Shown one piece after another: positions 9,489 to 41,118 of a stretch of 64,000 nucleotides of DNA. How positions within the stretch are numbered: the stretch's first letter is position 1; each line of letters begins with the position of its first letter. Under the pieces are notes generated by a model. That model was not told the origin of the DNA. It searched no databases and saw only the letters and a list, made by a program, of their open reading frames with translations. The stretch spans positions 310,001-374,000 of the forward strand of contig JAPDRO010000006.1 in assembly GCA_030247885.1 (NCBI GenBank), in the 5' to 3' direction. Position numbers and translations under genes: made by a program. The DNA comes from Taxawa tesnikishii (nom. ined.) (lineage: Eukaryota > Ascomycota > Dothideomycetes > Dothideales).

Positions 9489-11794
9489 CTAAGAGAACGA
9501 CCTGGTGTGCAGATCGAAGATCTCGTTCCGCCATCCCTGCGTCTGGCCGGCATCGTCGACTCTCTCTCCAGCCCTGGCAGCTTCCTCGTTCCAAAGCTTG
9601 ACCACGCTCCCGGGCGCATATACGCCCTTGAACACGCCCTTGCCTGGCTGGGCAACACCGATCCTGGTGTAGGTGTCCGGATCCTCCTCTGGCTGCAGAC
9701 GTGCAGAGATTGCCCTGAAGAAGGTGATGAGGTCGTTGGGGTCAGAGATGCGGGTGGCCCTCAGACGCTCGCGCGCGTAGAGCAGCTCACGGTTGGCAGA
9801 GTGGAGGGCGTCGGCGATGGCGCTTGCAATCTGCTTCTCCATGACCTTGCGGACGATTGGTCGAAGCAGGGGCTTGACGATCCATGCAAGCCAAGAGAAC
9901 TTGCTCTTACGCATGTTGTAGTCGAGCTTGTGGACGTTGACACGGACGTCCTTGAGCGTCAGGATCTTCTCGAGGCGCTCCTTGGCGATCTCCACGTCCA
10001 TGTGGATGTCGAGACCTTTGTCGTCGAGTGCGAAGGACGCGATGCCCTCATCCGCAAGGCGAAGCAGGCCAGAGTGGGCGCGCATCCAGAATCCGATTTC
10101 CTCGGCGCGGGCGGAAATGCCGTCAATCTTAATGGTCACGAGGTGAGTCGTGCTAGAGGTGGTCTTGAATCTGGCCTTGCGGATCTCGAGATCGTTGTAT
10201 GTCTCTACGCGAAGCCTGTAAGGCAGGAAGGAGGACTGGTTGACGGTGTGGCCTGGCTCGATAATGAGGTTTTCCAGAAGAAGATCGATATCTGGCGTGC
10301 TGACCTCGATGCGTGGAATGGGAACGTACTGGATAGCAGCGATGAGTAGAGGGATGAAGATGTTGATGGCGTCCCGAACCAGGTCAGTGTTGACGCCGGA
10401 TTGAAGAGGGGAGAGGATGCGGAAGATGCGGAACGATGTTTGGAGCAGGCTGGCAACGTCGTTGTCTTGCAACACAGAGTGAAAAGTGTCTCCGGCTTGA
10501 CCAAGGAAGGCGTCGACATCGTTTCGCAGGGAAGACTCGGATCCGACCTTTTTCGACTTCTCACGAAGCTCCTTGAACTTGTCTTGGGCGTTGTCTAAGA
10601 AATCTGGGTCTGTAAGGAGAGCCTGAAGGGAGTCTCCAACGTCCGTCATGAGATTCTCGAATTCAGGGTCGTTGTCGCGATGAGACAGGACCTGATTGAA
10701 GTTTTGCTCGAGCTGGTTCCAGGCGTCTTTGTCGCCAAAGGATGTCAGGAAGATCCAAAAGTTCTTCATGGCACGATCTAACTCCGCGTTCTCGTGAACG
10801 TCCTCATCCACAGCGCTAACAGTTTCCTGCACCGCTCTCGAGTAGACCATGGCGTACCGCTTGATGAGCTTGGAGAGAGTGGAGACGGAATCGGAGTAGT
10901 CGTTCTTCTGTCTGAGCTTCAGAACCGCTTGCTTCAGGCGTTCGATCAAGACTTTTCCTTCGTCGCCTTGTAGTTTGTCCGCAGCGCTCTGCTCGACATC
11001 CTTGGCTACCTGGGCGGTGCCGTTGGCCACGACATTCGCGTAGGATGCAGCACTATCCTTGACGTCTTCGCTTGTTGGTGGAGGACCTGAGTCTGCACCT
11101 GGCTCCTTCAGCTTTTGTTGTTCCTCGTCGGACGGCTCAAGCTTCTTGCCCGCCTCCTCGGCGGCGTTGGAGACGGAAAAGGCTGCATCCTTGAAGATCT
11201 CCCGGCCAACGGTGTTGAGGTCGGAGAGGAAGACGCGGAAGTCGGAGTTGGTGAGGAGCAGAGAACCAACAGTCTGCAAGCTCTGGAAGGCTACGAGAAG
11301 GAGTCAGCAAGTCCGATTGCGAGAGAATTGTCATCCAAGCGCGTACCTGCAGCGGTCTGTGCCTTGCTCTGAGCCTTGGAAGCCCTCTGGAGAACGCTCT
11401 CGACGTCGACGTCAACTCTTGACTTGGTAAGGTACCAGATCAGGTCTTGGATCTGGTCGTCGCTGTTCTTGTGTTGCAGCAGCTCGATGAACTGCTGGAG
11501 CCATTTCCTGCAGTACTTGACCAGCAGCTTTCCAGAGTCACTAATGTTAGGATCGGAGGGGTTGAGGATGTCGGCAGCAAGCAGGGTCCTCAGGTTGATG
11601 ATGAGCTGCTCGTTGGAGGGCATGTAACCTTTGCCGAGAGCTCGGATCATCTGGTAAGAGTGGAGCTTCTGGTGAAGCTCGCGCTGAAGGGTCGTGTCAT
11701 CTCTGTATTGGGGCAGCAACGGCTCGCGGTCGTCAGCCTTTGATTTGCGGAAGCCCAAGCACGATGATATGGCCGACATGGTTGCAGCGGGCAC
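9489..11794 (-). CDS. HAM1-like protein (HAM1_N / HAM1_C, formerly DUF5923/DUF4449)
   Basis: Two exons on the minus strand, 11794-11347 and 11290-9489, are separated by a 56-bp GT-AG intron; the product is about 749 residues. The start could equally be the Met five codons later (11779). The N-terminal part (about residues 20-560) is helical and charged, with RALGKGYMPSNEQ near the start. The C-terminal part (from about residue 560) has alternating hydrophobic beta-strand patterns ending in a conserved GVFKGVYAPGSVVKLWN segment. This two-part layout matches fungal HAM1-like proteins, which have been compared to BPI/lipid-transfer folds. No signal peptide or membrane helix is seen. Assignment is from remembered family architecture. 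The biochemical role is not established, although HAM-named genes relate to hyphal fusion. Confidence 0.8.
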
Positions 11795-19783: not shown

Positions 19784-21006
19784 CTAGCGCAGACGCTCAT
19801 CGATCGGCGCGGCCCTGACATCCCTTCCGAAGGTGCCACGAGGCAGCGCCGAAGTGCAGTCGATCAAGTTGCTCGACCCGCCGGGAACGCCGAGGAGTTG
19901 CATCTTGGCCATTCTAACACCGTTGTCAGTCTGTCCTATGAATCCCTGCGACAAGACAAAACTTTTTTGGGCGGGGGAGGGAAGTTGGACGAAAACTCAC
20001 GCTCTGGAATACGCGATCCCCCACCGCCCCTGCGCGCCCACGAAGCTCTTGAACGCGGGCCCCACCTGCGCCTGGTTGGCCAAGTTCCTGTCGCTCTCGA
20101 GCACGAACGGCGCGCTGCCGTCGATCGTCTGCTGGTAGTACTTGACGTCCCAGACGCCGGGGGTGTCGTCTTGGGCGGCGCCGGCGCGGGATGGGTCCGT
20201 GGTGAACTGCCGAGATGTGCTGTGGGCGCCCATCAGGGCGGCCAGCTCGCCGGCGTCGAAACCTTTGGCTTGGAAGAGTGCGTACAAGGCATCGCCGGGT
20301 GAGTGCACGTCCGGGAGCTTGCTGAGGTCGTTGGGGGTTGAGGAGTCTTTGCGGCCGACGAAGGTTTGGACGCGGGGGCCGAGGGGACAGGTGGCGGTCG
20401 CGTGTGCTGGGAGGAAGGGATTAGCGTCCTTGTTGCATACCGGTGCTGCAATCGATGGAGGAGCAAATGGATAGGGTTGCGACTGCAAAGAGAGAAGTGC
20501 GGAGAAGGAGGCTGGGGAGATTGGTACTTACATCCTGCGAAAGCGATGATATCCGCAACGCCAACGTTGTGCTTGTTCGCGAGGTCGGACAGCTTGAGCG
20601 CAATCCCCTGCAGCCCGGCGTTTTCCTTAGCTTCGTACTCCTTGGCCAGGATGAGCGAGCCATCGCAACCGCCGTGCTCGCCTTCCGATTGGTCCCAGGA
20701 TGCGCAGTCGTGGAAAGATGCGCGGATGGCCGCACGAGCATCATCGTTGCACTGTCCGTTGCTCAGGAACATGCTCGTCAGTTCGGTGCTGATGGTCGAC
20801 CAAACAGCGGGGCATGAACCTCCAGAAGAGGAACCTCCAGAGGGTTGCGACGGAGGTCCTTGTTGGCCCGGTGGTCCGCCGAACCGCTTGAGCAGGGGGA
20901 TGGAGGGAAGGCGCAGATCGTGTGCGAAGGAGGAGATGTCTTGCAAACTGAAGGCGCTGGCGCCGGCCACTGTGGCGAGTAGTGCGATGGACTGGGAGAG
21001 ATGCAT
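19784..21006 (-). CDS. Secreted class II heme peroxidase (ascomycete ligninase-like)
   Basis: Three exons on the minus strand: 21006-20532, 20406-20001 and 19913-19784, giving about 336 residues. The upstream in-frame Met at 21057 would bury the signal peptide, so MHLSQSIALLATVAGASAFS is taken as the start and signal sequence. The distal heme pocket is RASFHDCASW (Arg and His), followed by a Ca2+-site-like GGCDGSL. The proximal His is in ALMGAHSTSRQF. FAGSHATATCPLGPRV spans the first splice junction. Class II fungal peroxidases oxidise substrates with H2O2. Ascomycete members are related to, but not proven equal to, lignin-degrading basidiomycete enzymes. Whether a Mn site or surface Trp is present was not determined. 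No frame break. Confidence 0.92.
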
Positions 21007-35961: not shown

Positions 35962-37280
35962 TCTGGCGACTTAATATTTTGTGAGAGGTTGAAGGCGGTA
36001 GGGAAGTATGCCTCTACCCTGATATGGCCAACGAGCGGGTAGGGGTTCGGTTTAGGAGGGCTTTGCTGCGTATCCAGAAAAAGTTTGTTCGTGTCGTGTA
36101 ATAAGCGATATGAACAGGAACACAGTACACGACAGTCGGAGTGGGCTTCGTTGTGTATGTATACGTATAGATATCAACGCAAGTGGTATAGATAAGTATG
36201 CAGAGTCAAGTGGGGACTTTTGTCTGGGCTCATGTGAAACTGTTGCCAGGGCTGCGTCGCGTCGCTCACCTGATGACGTACAGCAAAGAGGCTGAGATCA
36301 AACATCAGCCACAATGTGTACTGTACACCCACTTCTGTTTCATTTCGTTGGAGTGTCATGTCATGTCTCTTCTCGGTCCTTTTTATGAACATGTGTGCGA
36401 GCGACAGACAGCAAAGCCTGTCTGAGGCTACTTGAGCATGTCTGACACACGGCGCATTACATGTATACGCCATAAGAGCACTAGCGAAGATGTCTTTCGC
36501 GACCAATCCTTAGAATACACCACCATTTCACACAAAAACACCGTCTCTTGCACTTCCAATCCGTTTTGGACTCTGAGAATGGTATATCTGCCCCTTTGAC
36601 ACAGCTCGATCAAACACAATGATATAAGTGCACGATCGGCACCACAATCAGTGACGATGCGGAGATCCTCTACTGTTTGTTTCTGTCTCTATCTGCTCCT
36701 CAATCAAGATCAACTCCATGCAAATCTTTTACGGTTTCTATACACTCCGGAGAAAGCTTGTTATGTGTCATCTCGTATACCCTTGCTCTGCACTTCTACA
36801 TTACCTGGCCGGCTCCCACTGATGCAGGTTCACCGACGACCGGCATGCTGCGTTTGAGCGATATCAACTCTCCGTCCACTGTCAATTGTTAGCTACTCGA
36901 AGTACTAGTCGAGTAACGCGGCATATGCCTACATGCAGCATACTCTTCTGATTCAAATCAACGTTTCATCGTCCATCTCTCGGACGGGAGATCTTCGGTT
37001 TTTTGAACGAGCTGAAGGGACACAGCTGGACAAGCGGATCTGGTCCCCGCTCGCAACAGAGCCGGAGCCAGGCGAACCATGCTTGGTTGGCGGGCTGCGA
37101 CGAATCTTTGGCTTGGTCTCCTTCGATGCCACACCACGTCAAGACTGGGTACGGCTGACCTTATGCACGCCCTCGGATTTGCCGTCGGCTTGCCCCGTCT
37201 TTTCAACGTACATTGGATGTATATGGCCGCTGCTGCTACAACAACATCTGTCTTAGGCGATTACTCGCCTATTCATCTAC
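35962..37280. other. Intergenic before tRNA cluster
   Basis: 1.3 kb with no recognised gene. All open frames are short and without family features. The left end holds the DnaJ gene promoter. Confidence 0.5.
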
Positions 37281-37367
37281 CTCCGCTTAGCTCAGCTGGA
37301 AGTAGCGCAAGACTGTAATATCAATCAGATAATCTTGAGGTCGCCTGTTCGATCCAGGCAGCGGAGA
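37281..37367 (+). tRNA. tRNA-Tyr (GTA) with short anticodon-loop intron
   Basis: Acceptor stem CTCCGCT pairs fully with AGCGGAG; discriminator A. The D-arm is GCT/AGC with TAGCTCAGCTGG as A box. The anticodon stem CAAGA/TCTTG encloses CTGTAA, giving anticodon GTA. A 13-nt insertion (tatcaatcagata) directly follows nucleotide 37, the canonical eukaryotic tRNA intron position, which tRNA-Tyr genes usually have. The T-arm is GCCTG-TTCGATC-CAGGC. A TTTT Pol III terminator follows at 37374-37377. It serves as an ordinary control for the two unusual neighbours. Confidence 0.93.
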
Positions 37368-37640
37368 ACGCTCTTTTGCTTGTAGCATGCATGCCTTTTG
37401 TCTCTTTGAAGTACACAGACCATGGTTCTTCTTCTTGCTCTACACATTAAGGGCTTCAAACAGCCCCTCTGGAGTCCCTCATGCCTTCTACAGCATGGCA
37501 GGCCTAGGAGAACGACGCCCCGTCGTTCAACTACAATCCGTATGGTGTACGACCTGTAGGACCGGGTATGTTCTCACCTGGCATTTTGAACAGAGTATAT
37601 ATTTTATCATGGCAAAGTCGTGCAGCATCACGTGATGAGT
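37368..37640. other. Spacer between tRNA-Tyr and tRNA-Pro
   Basis: No gene established. A frame starting after a CCTAG at 37503-37507 reads ENDAPSFNYNPYGVRPVGPG and looks protein-like, but neither a start nor a continuation was found. Confidence 0.4.
37374..37377 (+). terminator. Pol III T-run terminator of tRNA-Tyr
   Basis: TTTT seven bases after the tRNA end. Confidence 0.7.
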
Positions 37641-37649
37641 GGTTCATTG

Positions 37650-37704
37650 GTTCGTTTCTTCGTTCCTGTCCCTACACCATCAGTCATACTAATTGCCTCA
37701 TCAG
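37650..37704 (+). other. Spliceosomal-type intron 1 in tRNA-Pro (after nucleotide 9)
   Basis: 55 bp, starts GTTCGT and ends CATCAG, with branch-like TACTAAT 16 bp before the end. Removal joins GGTTCATTG to GTCTAGTGG. The donor is non-consensus beyond GT, so donor use is the weaker part. Confidence 0.65.
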
Positions 37705-37767
37705 GTCTAGTGGTATGATTCTCGCTTAGGGCCCACCCTGAGTATCACACTCCATGAATGCGAGAGG

Positions 37768-37822
37768 GTGAGATTGCCTTTACACAAAACTTCTCAAACC
37801 TACATCACTAACATCAACTTAG
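37768..37822 (+). other. Spliceosomal-type intron 3 in tRNA-Pro (before the T-stem)
   Basis: 55 bp, starts GTGAGA and ends CTTAG, with branch-like CACTAAC 12 bp before the end. Removal joins GCGAGAGG to TCCCGGATTCG, the normal tRNA-Pro sequence across the variable loop. Confidence 0.75.
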
Positions 37823-37849
37823 TCCCGGATTCGATCTCCGGATGAACCC

Positions 37850-38221
37850 AATCATATTTTTGCCATGTTTGGGTCGGTCGTTCGTCGAAGAGAAAGTCGA
37901 CTTTTGTTCGTTGTGCGACCTGGTAGGAGAGGAAGGCAGCACAGTCCTGTTATCAACTTGCTTCTAATGAACAGCACCCGACCAGAATGTGAAGATCTTC
38001 AACACCATGGAATCGACTACATGAGACGCCAAACTTCGTCACGTCCTGCAAATGCATATGCTGGCCGCTTAGCTGCACTCGCTTCGTCTCCCAGATGGAT
38101 GTCAGCTTTCGCTAGTGGGCAGTCTTGGAAACAAACCCGTGGCAGCCTTCCCCGAGGCCGGCACCTTGTTTGGTCAGGGTATATATTTCCTATGATCGAA
38201 ACGAGCCCCTACCTACAGTGC
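37850..38221. other. Spacer between tRNA-Pro and tRNA-Gln
   Basis: 372 bp with no recognised gene. A second GGTCG-type 5-mer at 37872-37876 could in principle serve as an alternative 5' piece of tRNA-Gln, but it would need a 400-bp intron with a poor donor. Confidence 0.45.
37857..37861 (+). terminator. Pol III T-run terminator of tRNA-Pro
   Basis: TTTTT seven bases after the tRNA-Pro discriminator base. Confidence 0.7.
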
Positions 38222-38364
38222 GGTTGGTAAGTTTCATTCACCTTCCTCATTCGGTATTTCTAGTCTAACAGTCCTTCAGTATAGTGTAGTGGTTAGCACG
38301 CGGGATTTTGACGAGTCTTGTCTCCAAAGTTCCCGAGACCCCGGTTCGAGCCCGGGTACGACCT
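38222..38364 (+). tRNA. tRNA-Gln (TTG) with an intron inside the acceptor stem
   Basis: Parts: 38222-38226 (GGTTG), 38280-38311 and 38330-38364. Joined, the 5' end reads GGTTGTA and pairs with the 3' TACGACC over all seven positions, one being a G-U pair; discriminator T. The D-arm is GTGTAGTGGTTAGCAC, the anticodon stem is CGGGA/TCCCG with anticodon TTG, and the T-arm is CCCGG-TTCGAGC-CCGGG. An 18-nt canonical intron follows nucleotide 37. The 53-bp insertion falls between acceptor nucleotides 5 and 6. Without it, the sequence directly 5' of position 6 pairs with only three of seven 3' bases. A and B boxes are intact. The next clear T-run downstream is TTTTT at about 38467. Confidence 0.78.
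38227..38279 (+). other. Spliceosomal-type intron in the tRNA-Gln acceptor stem
   Basis: 53 bp, starts with the perfect donor GTAAGT and ends TTCAG, with branch-like TCTAAC 11 bp before the end. It matches the size and signals of introns in the neighbouring protein genes. Confidence 0.72.
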
Positions 38365-39085
38365 TTGCGGTGCTTCGAAAGGCCATGATGATCTCCTTCT
38401 CTTTGCTACTCCACCAAGTACCAGGGGGACACTGAGCGACTTCGGTGTCCTCCGTTACCTGCGAGACTTTTTACGGTGCGCTGGAAAACTGTTTCCATCT
38501 TTCACCAAGGTCAATCTCCCAAATGCAGTCAAGATGATAGGACTGTCCTTCTAATGGATCCGGAAGAGATTTGACAGAAGCGCCTCGCCAGATCGATACT
38601 TCTCACGGCCATTCTACTTGACTAGACTTCGAAGAACGAACAAAGGAAACATGGTTCGAACTAGACAAATGCAAGCACGAACGCTTCAACAGAGCGAAAA
38701 CGGCCTGGACCCCACTCATGCACCCCACGGTCGCCTGCAAACAACCCCGCGTGGGAGATCGCTCGAGGTGCGGGGTATGTGAGTTTACGGTCACTTGACG
38801 GGCTGGACGCTCGTCAGACCTCAGCATCACACAAAAGAACACAGCACACCATGCATTGCAGGACGAGGCTGAGTCACTCCGATTGCGGCGCACAAGTACT
38901 GCCCAGTCTTCGAAGTACAGCGACACCTTTACACCAGCAAAACTTCCTAATCCTTCCAACAAAAAAAGCCAATCCCGCCGTGAGTTGAGCCTATTAATAT
39001 TTGATCTGGTTCTGACAAATACTGGAATAGAACGTGACAGAGCAGCCTTGTAGACGTGTTGTGAATACCGTAGGACATACTCGCC
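38365..39085. other. Intergenic before phosphoglycerate dehydrogenase
   Basis: No gene recognised. The right end is the presumed promoter of the dehydrogenase gene. Confidence 0.5.
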
Positions 39086-41118
39086 ATGCCTCTTGCTGAA
39101 CCTAGTTCCAGGAATGGCCACAGCACTTCACGTCCCTTGGTTCTGATCCCGGAGAAGGTCTCTCCGGATGGTCTCGCCTTGCTCCAATCCGCCACCGAGG
39201 TGCACGAACGTAAAGGACTCTCTCCGGAAGATCTTTTGCAAATAATCGGAGACTATGAAGCCCTGATAGTTCGGTCAGAGACCAAGGTGACAGCAGCGCT
39301 GCTCGCGGCCGGCAAGAGGCTGAAGGTCGTTGCGAGGGCTGGTGTTGGTGTGGATAACGTCGATGTTGAGGCGGCTACGAAGCATGGGATCATTGTGGTC
39401 AACTCGCCTGTGGGCAACATTAATGCTGCGGCTGAACACACGATTGCCTGTAGGTACTTCCCTCATTTACTGGAGAAACTGCCTCACTCTCGAAGAGAGT
39501 ATGTGGATGAGTAGGATCGCGAGTGCACGCTGAAAGCCATTGAGCTGTTCTGCCATATGACAGAAATGGCCATAACAAAGCAATGCTAATGTGGAGCATT
39601 TCAGTGCTCATGGCCGTTGCTCGCAACATCGGAGACGCTTGCGCGAGTCTCAAAAGCGGCAGATGGGAACGCAGCAGGTTGGTAGGTGTCGAGGTCAAGG
39701 GCAAGACACTGGCCATCATCGGCCTGGGGAAAGGTAAGAAATCTCCATACTACCTCGGAATGCTGTTGACTCACCTTGCCATAGTCGGCCTGACCGTAGC
39801 ACGCATTGCACACGGGATGGGCATGAACCTCATCGCCTACGATCCTTATGCCAACCCCTCCCTCGCTTCCGCCGCCTCCGTGGATCTGCTTCAGAGTCTT
39901 CCCGAATTACTAAAGGAAGCCGACTTCCTGACTATCCACACGCCACTCATTGCCTCGACCAAAGGCATGATCGGCTCTGCTGAGCTCGAGCTGATGAAAC
40001 CAACCGCACGTATCCTCAATGTTGCACGAGGCGGCATGATTGATGAATCGGCTTTGCTGTCTGCGCTCGAAAACGGCACCATCGCGGGCGCAGGCATTGA
40101 TGTCTTCTCCTCGGAGCCACCAGACGCAAACTCGTCCGCTCGTGCGCTGATTGCGCACCCACAAGTAGTGGCCACACCACACCTCGGAGCGTCAACCGTA
40201 GAGGCTCAAGAAAACGTTTCTATCGATGTGTGCACACAAGTGCTCTCCATCCTCTCAGGCTCACTCCCACGCTCGGCCGTTAATGCACCCATCATCCTAC
40301 CCGAGGAGTTCCGCACCCTACAACCCTTCGTGTCGCTAGTTGAGAAGATGGGCAGCCTGTACACGCAGCACTGCGCACGGAACCCCTCGCAGCAATACCG
40401 CACCACATTCGACGTGACGTACGAGGGCAGCCTAGCGACGCTCAAGAGCACGCAGCCCCTGTTCGCGGCGCTGGTCAAGGGGCTGTTGACGCCTATCACG
40501 GCAGCCGAGACGCTCAACATCAACATCGTCAATGCGGAGCTGGTCGCGAAGCAGCGCGGGATCCTGATCAACGAGAACCGGAGTCGCGAGAACATCGAGC
40601 AGGTAGAGGGATACTCATCCTTCGTGACACTGCGTGCGCGTGTAGACCCACGGAGTCCGTCTGCGAGCCGCCGGCTGAATGATCCCTTCGCCAGTGCGGG
40701 CACCGCCGCCGCCTCAGCGGCCAGAGCAAAAGCGGCACAGGAAGACGCTCATGTCATCTCGGGCTTCGTCTCCCATAACACGCCTTACATCAGCCGACTG
40801 GGCCGTTTCAGTACCAGCTTCGTACCCAGCGGAACATTGCTAATCTGCCGCAACTACGATTCGCCGGGTAAGATTGGCGTCGTGGGTGGTCGGCTCGGCA
40901 AGGCCGGCGTCAATATCCGATCTATGAGTGTTGCACCGCTCGATAGAGATGAGGAGGGAGAAGGAGATGAGTTGACAAAAGTCGATAGCTTAGTGCAAGG
41001 AAGGAAGGAGAACGAAGCGTTGATGATTCTCGGAGTGGATGGGATGGTGGAGGACAGCGTAAGGAAGGACTTGATTGGGCAGGAGGGAGTTTTAGAGGCT
41101 AGCGTTGTGGTGCTCTAG
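39086..41118 (+). CDS. D-3-phosphoglycerate dehydrogenase, long type with ASB and ACT regions
   Basis: Three exons, 39086-39449, 39605-39733 and 39785-41118, GT-AG and in phase; 608 residues. The substrate domain opens with PLVLIPEKVSPDGLALL. The NAD Rossmann motif is IIGLGKVGLTVA across the second junction. The catalytic Arg lies in VARGGMIDESAL, and the His-Glu relay is in HLGASTVEAQENVS. After about residue 380 there is an extra domain like the allosteric substrate-binding (ASB) region of long PGDHs. The last 80 residues resemble an ACT domain (GKIGVVGGRLGKAGVNIRSM). The enzyme oxidises 3-phosphoglycerate in serine synthesis. This layout is the one seen in bacteria, animals and plants; yeast Ser3/Ser33 have a different arrangement. 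Unusual insert: an Ala-rich SAGTAAASAARAKAAQ loop near residue 490. Confidence 0.92.

Follow-up and report, generated by a model that had tools for sequence, protein, structure and literature searches.

What are the nearest relatives of an mRNA-type intron that interrupts the gene of a noncoding RNA? Tani and Ohshima (1989, 1991) reportedly found that the U6 snRNA gene of Schizosaccharomyces pombe is interrupted by an mRNA-type intron, and Bhattacharya et al. (2000) are said to have described ectopic spliceosomal introns in the rDNA of lichen-forming ascomycetes. The S. pombe U6 snRNA gene is described as having an mRNA-type intron that lies in an RNA polymerase III (Pol III) transcript and is removed by the spliceosome (PMC8917221), and one of the ectopic spliceosomal introns of the rDNA of lichen-forming ascomycetes was removed by yeast from RNA polymerase I (Pol I) transcripts (PMC8527467). 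The splicing of tRNA is held to be independent of the spliceosome (PMC13149111). Ectopic tRNA introns are described for Cyanidioschyzon merolae and the Guillardia theta nucleomorph (PMC4090602, PMC3978253, PMC9602550), and in C. merolae, where a gene can contain several introns, they are tied to the BHB motif and the tRNA splicing endonuclease (PMC4090602, PMC3978253). The available text of the open-licence PMC literature, including PMC11782384 and PMC13130702, contained no description of a nuclear tRNA gene with spliceosomal introns, which is weak evidence of absence.

Taxawa tesnikishii JES_119 is a black micro-colonial fungus of the Dothideales from desert soil crust. Because its assembly is based on 194x nanopore and 25x Illumina coverage, with BUSCO values of 97.4 and 92.9% (PMC11195213, Table 2), assembly error is unlikely to account for the gene structures described here. 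The genome that we analysed comprises 34 contigs and 29,367,862 bases, compared with the published 38 scaffolds and 29,383,553 bases (PMC11195213). The species paper used tRNAscan-SE, and the word 'intron' is absent from its main text (PMC11195213); its Table 2 gives 197 predicted tRNA genes for JES_119 and 72 and 78 for two companion species. Contigs C25 (80,121 bases), C26 and C28 are tRNA-rich and organelle-like, and the tRNA positions of C25 mirror one another, an arrangement like that of a palindromic or snap-back assembly. A repeat like GTATAATAGTTAGTAY...AAGATAAAG is found on contigs C3, C4, C6, C10, C15, C17, C20, C24 and C34, in some cases near contig starts, and is probably mobile or subtelomeric.

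U2-type spliceosomal introns very probably reside inside nuclear tRNA genes of this fungus, and the spliceosome would be what removes them. The window, the whole 64,000-nucleotide stretch of DNA that was analysed, holds the tRNA-Pro(AGG) gene for which the initial annotation reported a 37/38 intron and two 55-bp GT...AG insertions, and both its coordinates and its anatomy are confirmed (Table 1; copies are designated here by contig, this one being Pro C31). The 46/47 intron enters two nucleotides 5' of the T stem, and the branch-like A lies 12 nt from the end of the 9/10 intron and 11 nt from the end of the 46/47 intron. The further claim, that removal of the three pieces leaves a tRNA-Pro(AGG), also holds: the joined exons form 7/7 acceptor pairs, 5/5 T-stem pairs and a D stem of three pairs, one of them G-U, and ARAGORN calls the product tRNA-Pro(agg), a differently trimmed version being named Leu. 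No tRNA is called by ARAGORN in the genomic sequence of the gene, and when only the two GT-AG insertions are taken out it calls a tRNA and assigns it to Ser, having put the 37/38 intron at a different place in the loop. In a removal control, every 45-65-bp GTNNG...CTRAY...AG piece was excised from the 64-kb window on both strands. Only one of the 36 pairs of pieces lying no more than 300 bp apart gives a tRNA across both joins, and it is the pair in the window proline gene; among 104 single excisions the only success is the neighbouring tRNA-Gln, with two alternative 5' boundaries. The joined proline tRNA is more than chance. Folding energy was dropped as evidence for the joined proline tRNAs, the RNAfold z-scores of three of them being an unremarkable -0.8 to -1.2; the acceptor, anticodon and T stems occur together in one of the three minimum free energy structures.

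Table 1. Features of the window, in window coordinates
Feature	Coordinates	Strand	Remarks
HAM1-like gene, 56-bp mRNA intron	11291..11346	-	reference for size and signals
tRNA, Tyr (GTA) by eye	37281..37367	+	ordinary anticodon-loop intron, no ectopic intron; local comparison
tRNA-Pro(AGG) gene, three introns and four exons (Pro C31)	37641..37849	+	
Pro exon 1: 5' acceptor strand and nucleotides 8-9	37641..37649	+	7/7 pairs with 37842-37848
Pro 55-bp GT-AG intron, site 9/10	37650..37704	+	5' splice site GTTCGT, branch-like TACTAAT, 3' end TCAG
Pro exon 2: D arm through nucleotide 37, anticodon AGG	37705..37731	+	
Pro 27-bp tRNA intron, canonical 37/38 position	37732..37758	+	71-93% identity among the four Pro(AGG) copies
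Pro exon 3: nucleotides 38-46	37759..37767	+	
Pro 55-bp GT-AG intron, site 46/47	37768..37822	+	5' splice site GTGAGA, branch-like CACTAAC, 3' end TTAG
Pro exon 4: nucleotides 47-48, T arm, 3' acceptor strand, discriminator	37823..37849	+	
tRNA-Gln(TTG), one GT-AG intron and one 37/38 intron (Gln C31)	38222..38364	+	exons 71/71 identical to uninterrupted C5:219205-219294
Gln 53-bp GT-AG intron, site 5/6, inside acceptor stem	38227..38279	+	GTAAGT, GTCTAAC, TCAG
Gln 18-bp canonical 37/38 intron	38312..38329	+	

The tRNA-Gln(TTG) gene that adjoins the proline gene is absent from the initial annotation. Rfam gives one tRNA match in the window, at 38279-38359, which begins at model position 5 and is without the 5' acceptor strand; that strand, GGTTG, is at 38222-38226, 53 bp upstream of the remainder. 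For the candidate tRNA-Tyr upstream of the proline gene, ARAGORN leaves the amino acid open, and a tRNA model of our own matches its whole length.

How many tRNA genes carry such introns? Spliceosome-type introns are present in 10 of the 80 nuclear tRNA or tRNA-like genes surveyed and in five isoacceptor families: four Pro(AGG) genes with two introns each, three Leu(AAG) genes, and Gln(TTG) on C31, Lys(CTT) on C30 and Gly(CCC) on C3 with one each. Among the Leu(AAG) carriers, the C31 copy has two introns, the C8 copy has one, and the C1 copy has two decayed relics only. Complete signals are found in 14 introns in nine genes, which represent about seven distinct sites in the five families, two sites being shared by the Pro copies and one by Leu C31 and C8; the 14 are not independent events. 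The insertion sites are 5/6, 9/10, 12/13, 46/47 (which in Leu falls in the variable arm, two nucleotides 5' of the T stem) and 53/54, and never 37/38. The survey was of uneven depth and consisted of 20 Rfam matches, nine Pro, two Gln, 16 further Thr, Phe and Lys, 23 further Glu, Gln, Asp, Gly and Met, six Leu and four incidental genes; five nuclear two-mismatch matches, further weak matches and L029 were excluded from the count. Genes were not sampled at random: the Leu family came to light through a search directed at introns of this type. Most of the patterns would have missed introns within the D or anticodon arms, and Gly(CCC) is represented by one copy only. Since 197 tRNA genes have been published (PMC11195213) and 80 were surveyed, there may be further interrupted tRNA genes in this genome. 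A scan for CTAAY...AG ending at T loops returned 13 places, two of them already-known tRNA genes and 11 of them non-tRNAs, and a scan before the T arm returned three, namely two known genes (as chance matches) and the new Leu(AAG) gene on C31. Among seven interrupted genes (four Pro, Gln, Lys and Gly), ARAGORN detects none in genomic form and six without the GT-AG introns, Pro C1 being the failure, and all seven fold as tRNA once all introns are removed; Lys and Gly then receive no clean anticodon, owing to the 37/38 boundary that we set. Outside that set, the joined exons of Leu C31 and C8 equal uninterrupted paralogues. Two Thr(AGT) loci, L071 and L072 (C7:442866 and C29:1292540), are without a proper T arm and are probably pseudogenes, and in the Thr loci L070, L074, L076 and L077 the 3' acceptor strand is one base short.

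All 14 introns are 52-57 bp long, begin with GTNNG, end with AG and contain CTRAY, the A of which lies 9-13 nt from the intron end, GT and AG having guided the placement of the boundaries within the few bases over which tRNA folding or alignment with paralogues leaves them free, and the Lys, Gly and Leu C31 introns also matching search patterns that contain CTAAY, through one of which Leu C31 was discovered. As a background, all three signals occur in 32 of the 3,026 GT...AG segments of 52-57 bp in the 64-kb window. The same signals are present in four homology-placed mRNA introns of the window, of 56, 87, 125 and 155 bp, in which the branch A, counted by eye, lies 12-15 nt before the end; for the 155-bp intron several in-frame boundaries are possible, and the one chosen restores the peptide of the homologue. 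Candidates of mRNA type (GTRNG...CTRAY...AG) have a size peak at 50-64 bp. In size and signals, the introns of the tRNA genes resemble the short mRNA introns of this genome. A length of 52-57 bp is too short for self-splicing introns of group I or group II, and the Rfam covariance models found no group I or group II catalytic core in the window, nor any in 36500-39500 at E<=5. The class II heme peroxidase gene of the window (19787-21006, minus strand) contains two introns, of 125 and 87 bp, and matches a T. tesnikishii protein of the public record at 94% over the aligned 62% of the unspliced ORF.

Could tRNA-Pro(AGG) come from another gene? Proline loci were sought with a 22-base pattern that left position 34 free and tolerated up to three mismatches over the 21 fixed positions, which gave four AGG, four TGG and one CGG loci and, in the genome searched, no GGG locus. 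The initial annotation had pointed to an intact Pro(AGG) family elsewhere, with this copy decayed, as the contrary case; it was sought and not found, since all four AGG loci carry both extra introns and no uninterrupted Pro(AGG) was detected. None of the five TGG and CGG loci is interrupted. As far as the assembly shows, Pro(AGG) would be supplied by interrupted genes only, and the spliceosome would be needed to decode CCU and CCC; in five ORFs of the window, 56 of the 132 proline codons are CCT or CCC. If the Pro(AGG) family is complete in the assembly, the cell must splice these precursors.

The sequences of the four Pro(AGG) copies are consistent with selection on the joined product. Their acceptors read GGTTCAT/ATGAACC (C31), GGTTCTG/CAGAACC (C13) and GGTCTTG/CAAGACC (C12), the two strands of each lying in different exons. 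With C1 included, both partners change at four acceptor pairs (as high in 18/500 shuffles), covariation is seen in six cells where 2.5 are expected (1/500 shuffles), 97.5% of cells are paired (1/500 shuffles) and further pair types are no more numerous than in shuffles (348/500), all by controls that are rough for four related sequences. Among the copies the exons are 84-94% identical, the 37/38 introns 71-93% and the GT-AG introns 55-64%, the last close to shuffled sequence (mean 49%, maximum 62%). Pro C1 has an acceptor of 5/7 pairs and retains complete splice signals. A decayed Leu gene and this partly decayed Pro(AGG) gene, at C1:931538 and C1:932102 (L016), are approximately 560 bp apart, and in the former the variable-arm intron is without its GT, which breaks the 5' splice site, and nucleotide 33 is changed. 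Both look like decaying copies. Because the acceptor of Pro C1 is reduced to 5/7 pairs and its Leu neighbour is decayed, some interrupted copies are relics.

Other families contain both interrupted and uninterrupted members. In Leu(AAG), the 12/13 site is occupied in C8 and C31, the latter having its second intron before the T stem, and there is no GT-AG intron in C10, C16 and C12; the exons of C31, C10 and C16 are identical at 79/79 positions. The 53-bp intron of Lys(CTT) C30, which lies between the T stem and the T loop, is found in none of the five paralogues, with exon identities of 72/72 to L081 and L095 and of 70/72, 71/73 and 72/73 to the three others. The Leu, Gln and Lys insertions are thus exactly absent in paralogues with identical exons, and gain is the most plausible origin of the GT-AG introns in these members of the Leu(AAG), Gln(TTG) and Lys(CTT) families. 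The uninterrupted paralogues still have 37/38 introns, whereas a gene copied back from a mature tRNA would have none; intron loss by that route is therefore unlikely, and gain offers the simpler account. Leu C8 has a 3' exon variant in common with uninterrupted C12, and Leu C31 has one in common with uninterrupted C10 and C16 (L135-L138, L011, L016); the distribution of the 12/13 intron would mean that it was either lost more than once or gained in parallel at the same position. Lys(CTT) L079, L081, L093 and L095 differ from L082 and L083 in a single C of the T arm, giving six or seven T-loop nucleotides, which is either real variation or a homopolymer error. It is likely that the spliceosome is obligatory for all tRNA-Pro(AGG), each precursor being cut twice by the spliceosome and once by the endonuclease, and that Leu, Gln and Lys tRNA genes have acquired such introns at new sites in recent times and may be acquiring them still.

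How might such a precursor be processed? An interrupted gene would give rise to an ordinary precursor, presumably through Pol III; the spliceosome would recognise GTNNG, CTRAY and AG and join the exons; the tRNA endonuclease and ligase would remove the 37/38 intron from the same precursor; and RNase P, tRNase Z and CCA addition would complete the tRNA. Two PF01974 tRNA-endonuclease subunit genes are present in the genome, so the enzyme that ordinarily handles 37/38 introns is provided for. Pol III elements were assessed in seven genes, with the Leu genes outside the set: TTTT lies within 8 nt of the 3' end in six of the seven, and A-box-like and B-box-like elements are found in six and in all seven, respectively, the terminal AG of the intron replacing tRNA letters in some. 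Gln C31 and Leu C8 are without TTTT near the 3' end, and the 12/13 introns of Leu C31 and C8 split the A box, which would weaken the Pol III promoter; neither the missing TTTT nor the split A box sits easily with a simple Pol III model. The absence of TTTT from 11 of the introns was rejected as a Pol III signature, as none of 20 mRNA-like candidates has TTTT either.

These two features would be accommodated if the introns were spliceosomal and the tRNA genes were transcribed, also or only, by Pol II within longer RNAs through which the spliceosome gains access; the spliceosome normally acts on Pol II transcripts (PMC8527467). We regard this as unlikely, given the terminators and the box-like elements in most of the seven genes assessed, and given that the U6 RNA of fission yeast is a Pol III transcript that the spliceosome nevertheless splices (PMC8917221). 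The initial annotation had left the choice between the spliceosome and a relaxed endonuclease. On the second reading the tRNA splicing endonuclease would remove the introns, as in C. merolae, and the GT-AG signals would be incidental. The four-pair central helix of the BHB motif is absent from all 14 introns, even with the boundaries slid by up to three positions; at a chance rate of 3.5% per intron by shuffling, approximately 0.5 of 14 is expected, so that 0/14 denotes absence and not depletion. The test is not fully diagnostic, as the BHB core helix is missing from the ordinary 37/38 introns of the interrupted genes as well, and the 9/10 intron of Pro C13 scores 7/9 over all BHB helices, which approximately 2% of shuffles reach. 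The two endonuclease subunit genes are present, and ectopic tRNA introns handled in this way are known, many of those in the Guillardia nucleomorph being without a defined BHB (PMC4090602, PMC3978253). An endonuclease has, however, no need of GTNNG, a near-fixed CTRAY and AG in every one of the introns, nor of the size of an mRNA intron, and it is very unlikely to be what removes them; of the two agents proposed, the spliceosome is favoured by the full set of signals, the mRNA-intron size and the lack of the helix.

Are the interrupted copies instead unexpressed pseudogenes with small insertions, CCU and CCC being read by the product of an undetected Pro(AGG) gene? The decayed or partly decayed Pro and Leu pair on C1 would fit, and there is space for such a gene to hide, with 80 genes surveyed against 197 published and four of the 38 published scaffolds (approximately 16 kb of 29.38 Mb) absent from the genome analysed (PMC11195213). 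The proline pattern should nevertheless have caught an intact Pro(AGG) at three mismatches over 21 fixed positions. Three of the Pro(AGG) copies keep a perfect acceptor through compensatory changes, the exons are far more alike than the introns, and complete splice signals are retained in nine of the ten genes, partly decayed Pro C1 included; we regard this reading as very unlikely.

If spliceosomal introns do interrupt these genes, the spliceosome would be essential for tRNA supply, mRNA splicing and decoding would compete for one machine, and spliceosomes would have to assemble on very short, folding precursors, with 5' exons of 5, 9 or 12 nt plus the leader. Paralogues whose exons are identical, and of which only some carry the intron, offer clean material for the study of intron gain. 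Because ARAGORN detects none of the seven interrupted genes in genomic form, similar tRNA genes may hide in other genomes.

Like canonical eukaryotic tRNA genes the Taxawa genes have 37/38 introns, both kinds of intron being present in the same genes and presumably in the same precursor, but the 37/38 introns measure 15-30 bp in nine genes and follow no GT-AG rule, whereas the GT-AG introns measure 52-57 bp and occupy other sites. With C. merolae and Guillardia they share introns outside 37/38 in nuclear or nucleomorph tRNA genes. Unlike the introns of C. merolae, which are tied to BHB and for which the available text of the papers mentions no GT-AG or branch signals, those of Taxawa are without the BHB core helix and have complete spliceosomal signals. 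The lichen rDNA resembles them in having spliceosomal-type introns at ectopic sites of structural RNA genes in ascomycetes, in that case in rRNA genes transcribed by Pol I and in Taxawa in tRNA genes; an exact search of the Taxawa genome for a 17-base SSU pattern found nothing. In S. pombe, likewise an ascomycete, the spliceosomal-type intron of U6 lies in a noncoding RNA gene transcribed by Pol III, but that gene encodes an snRNA, and the Taxawa introns are in tRNA genes of five isoacceptor families, with up to two such introns and an endonuclease intron per precursor. The nearest precedents are the spliceosomal introns in U6 snRNA and rRNA genes.
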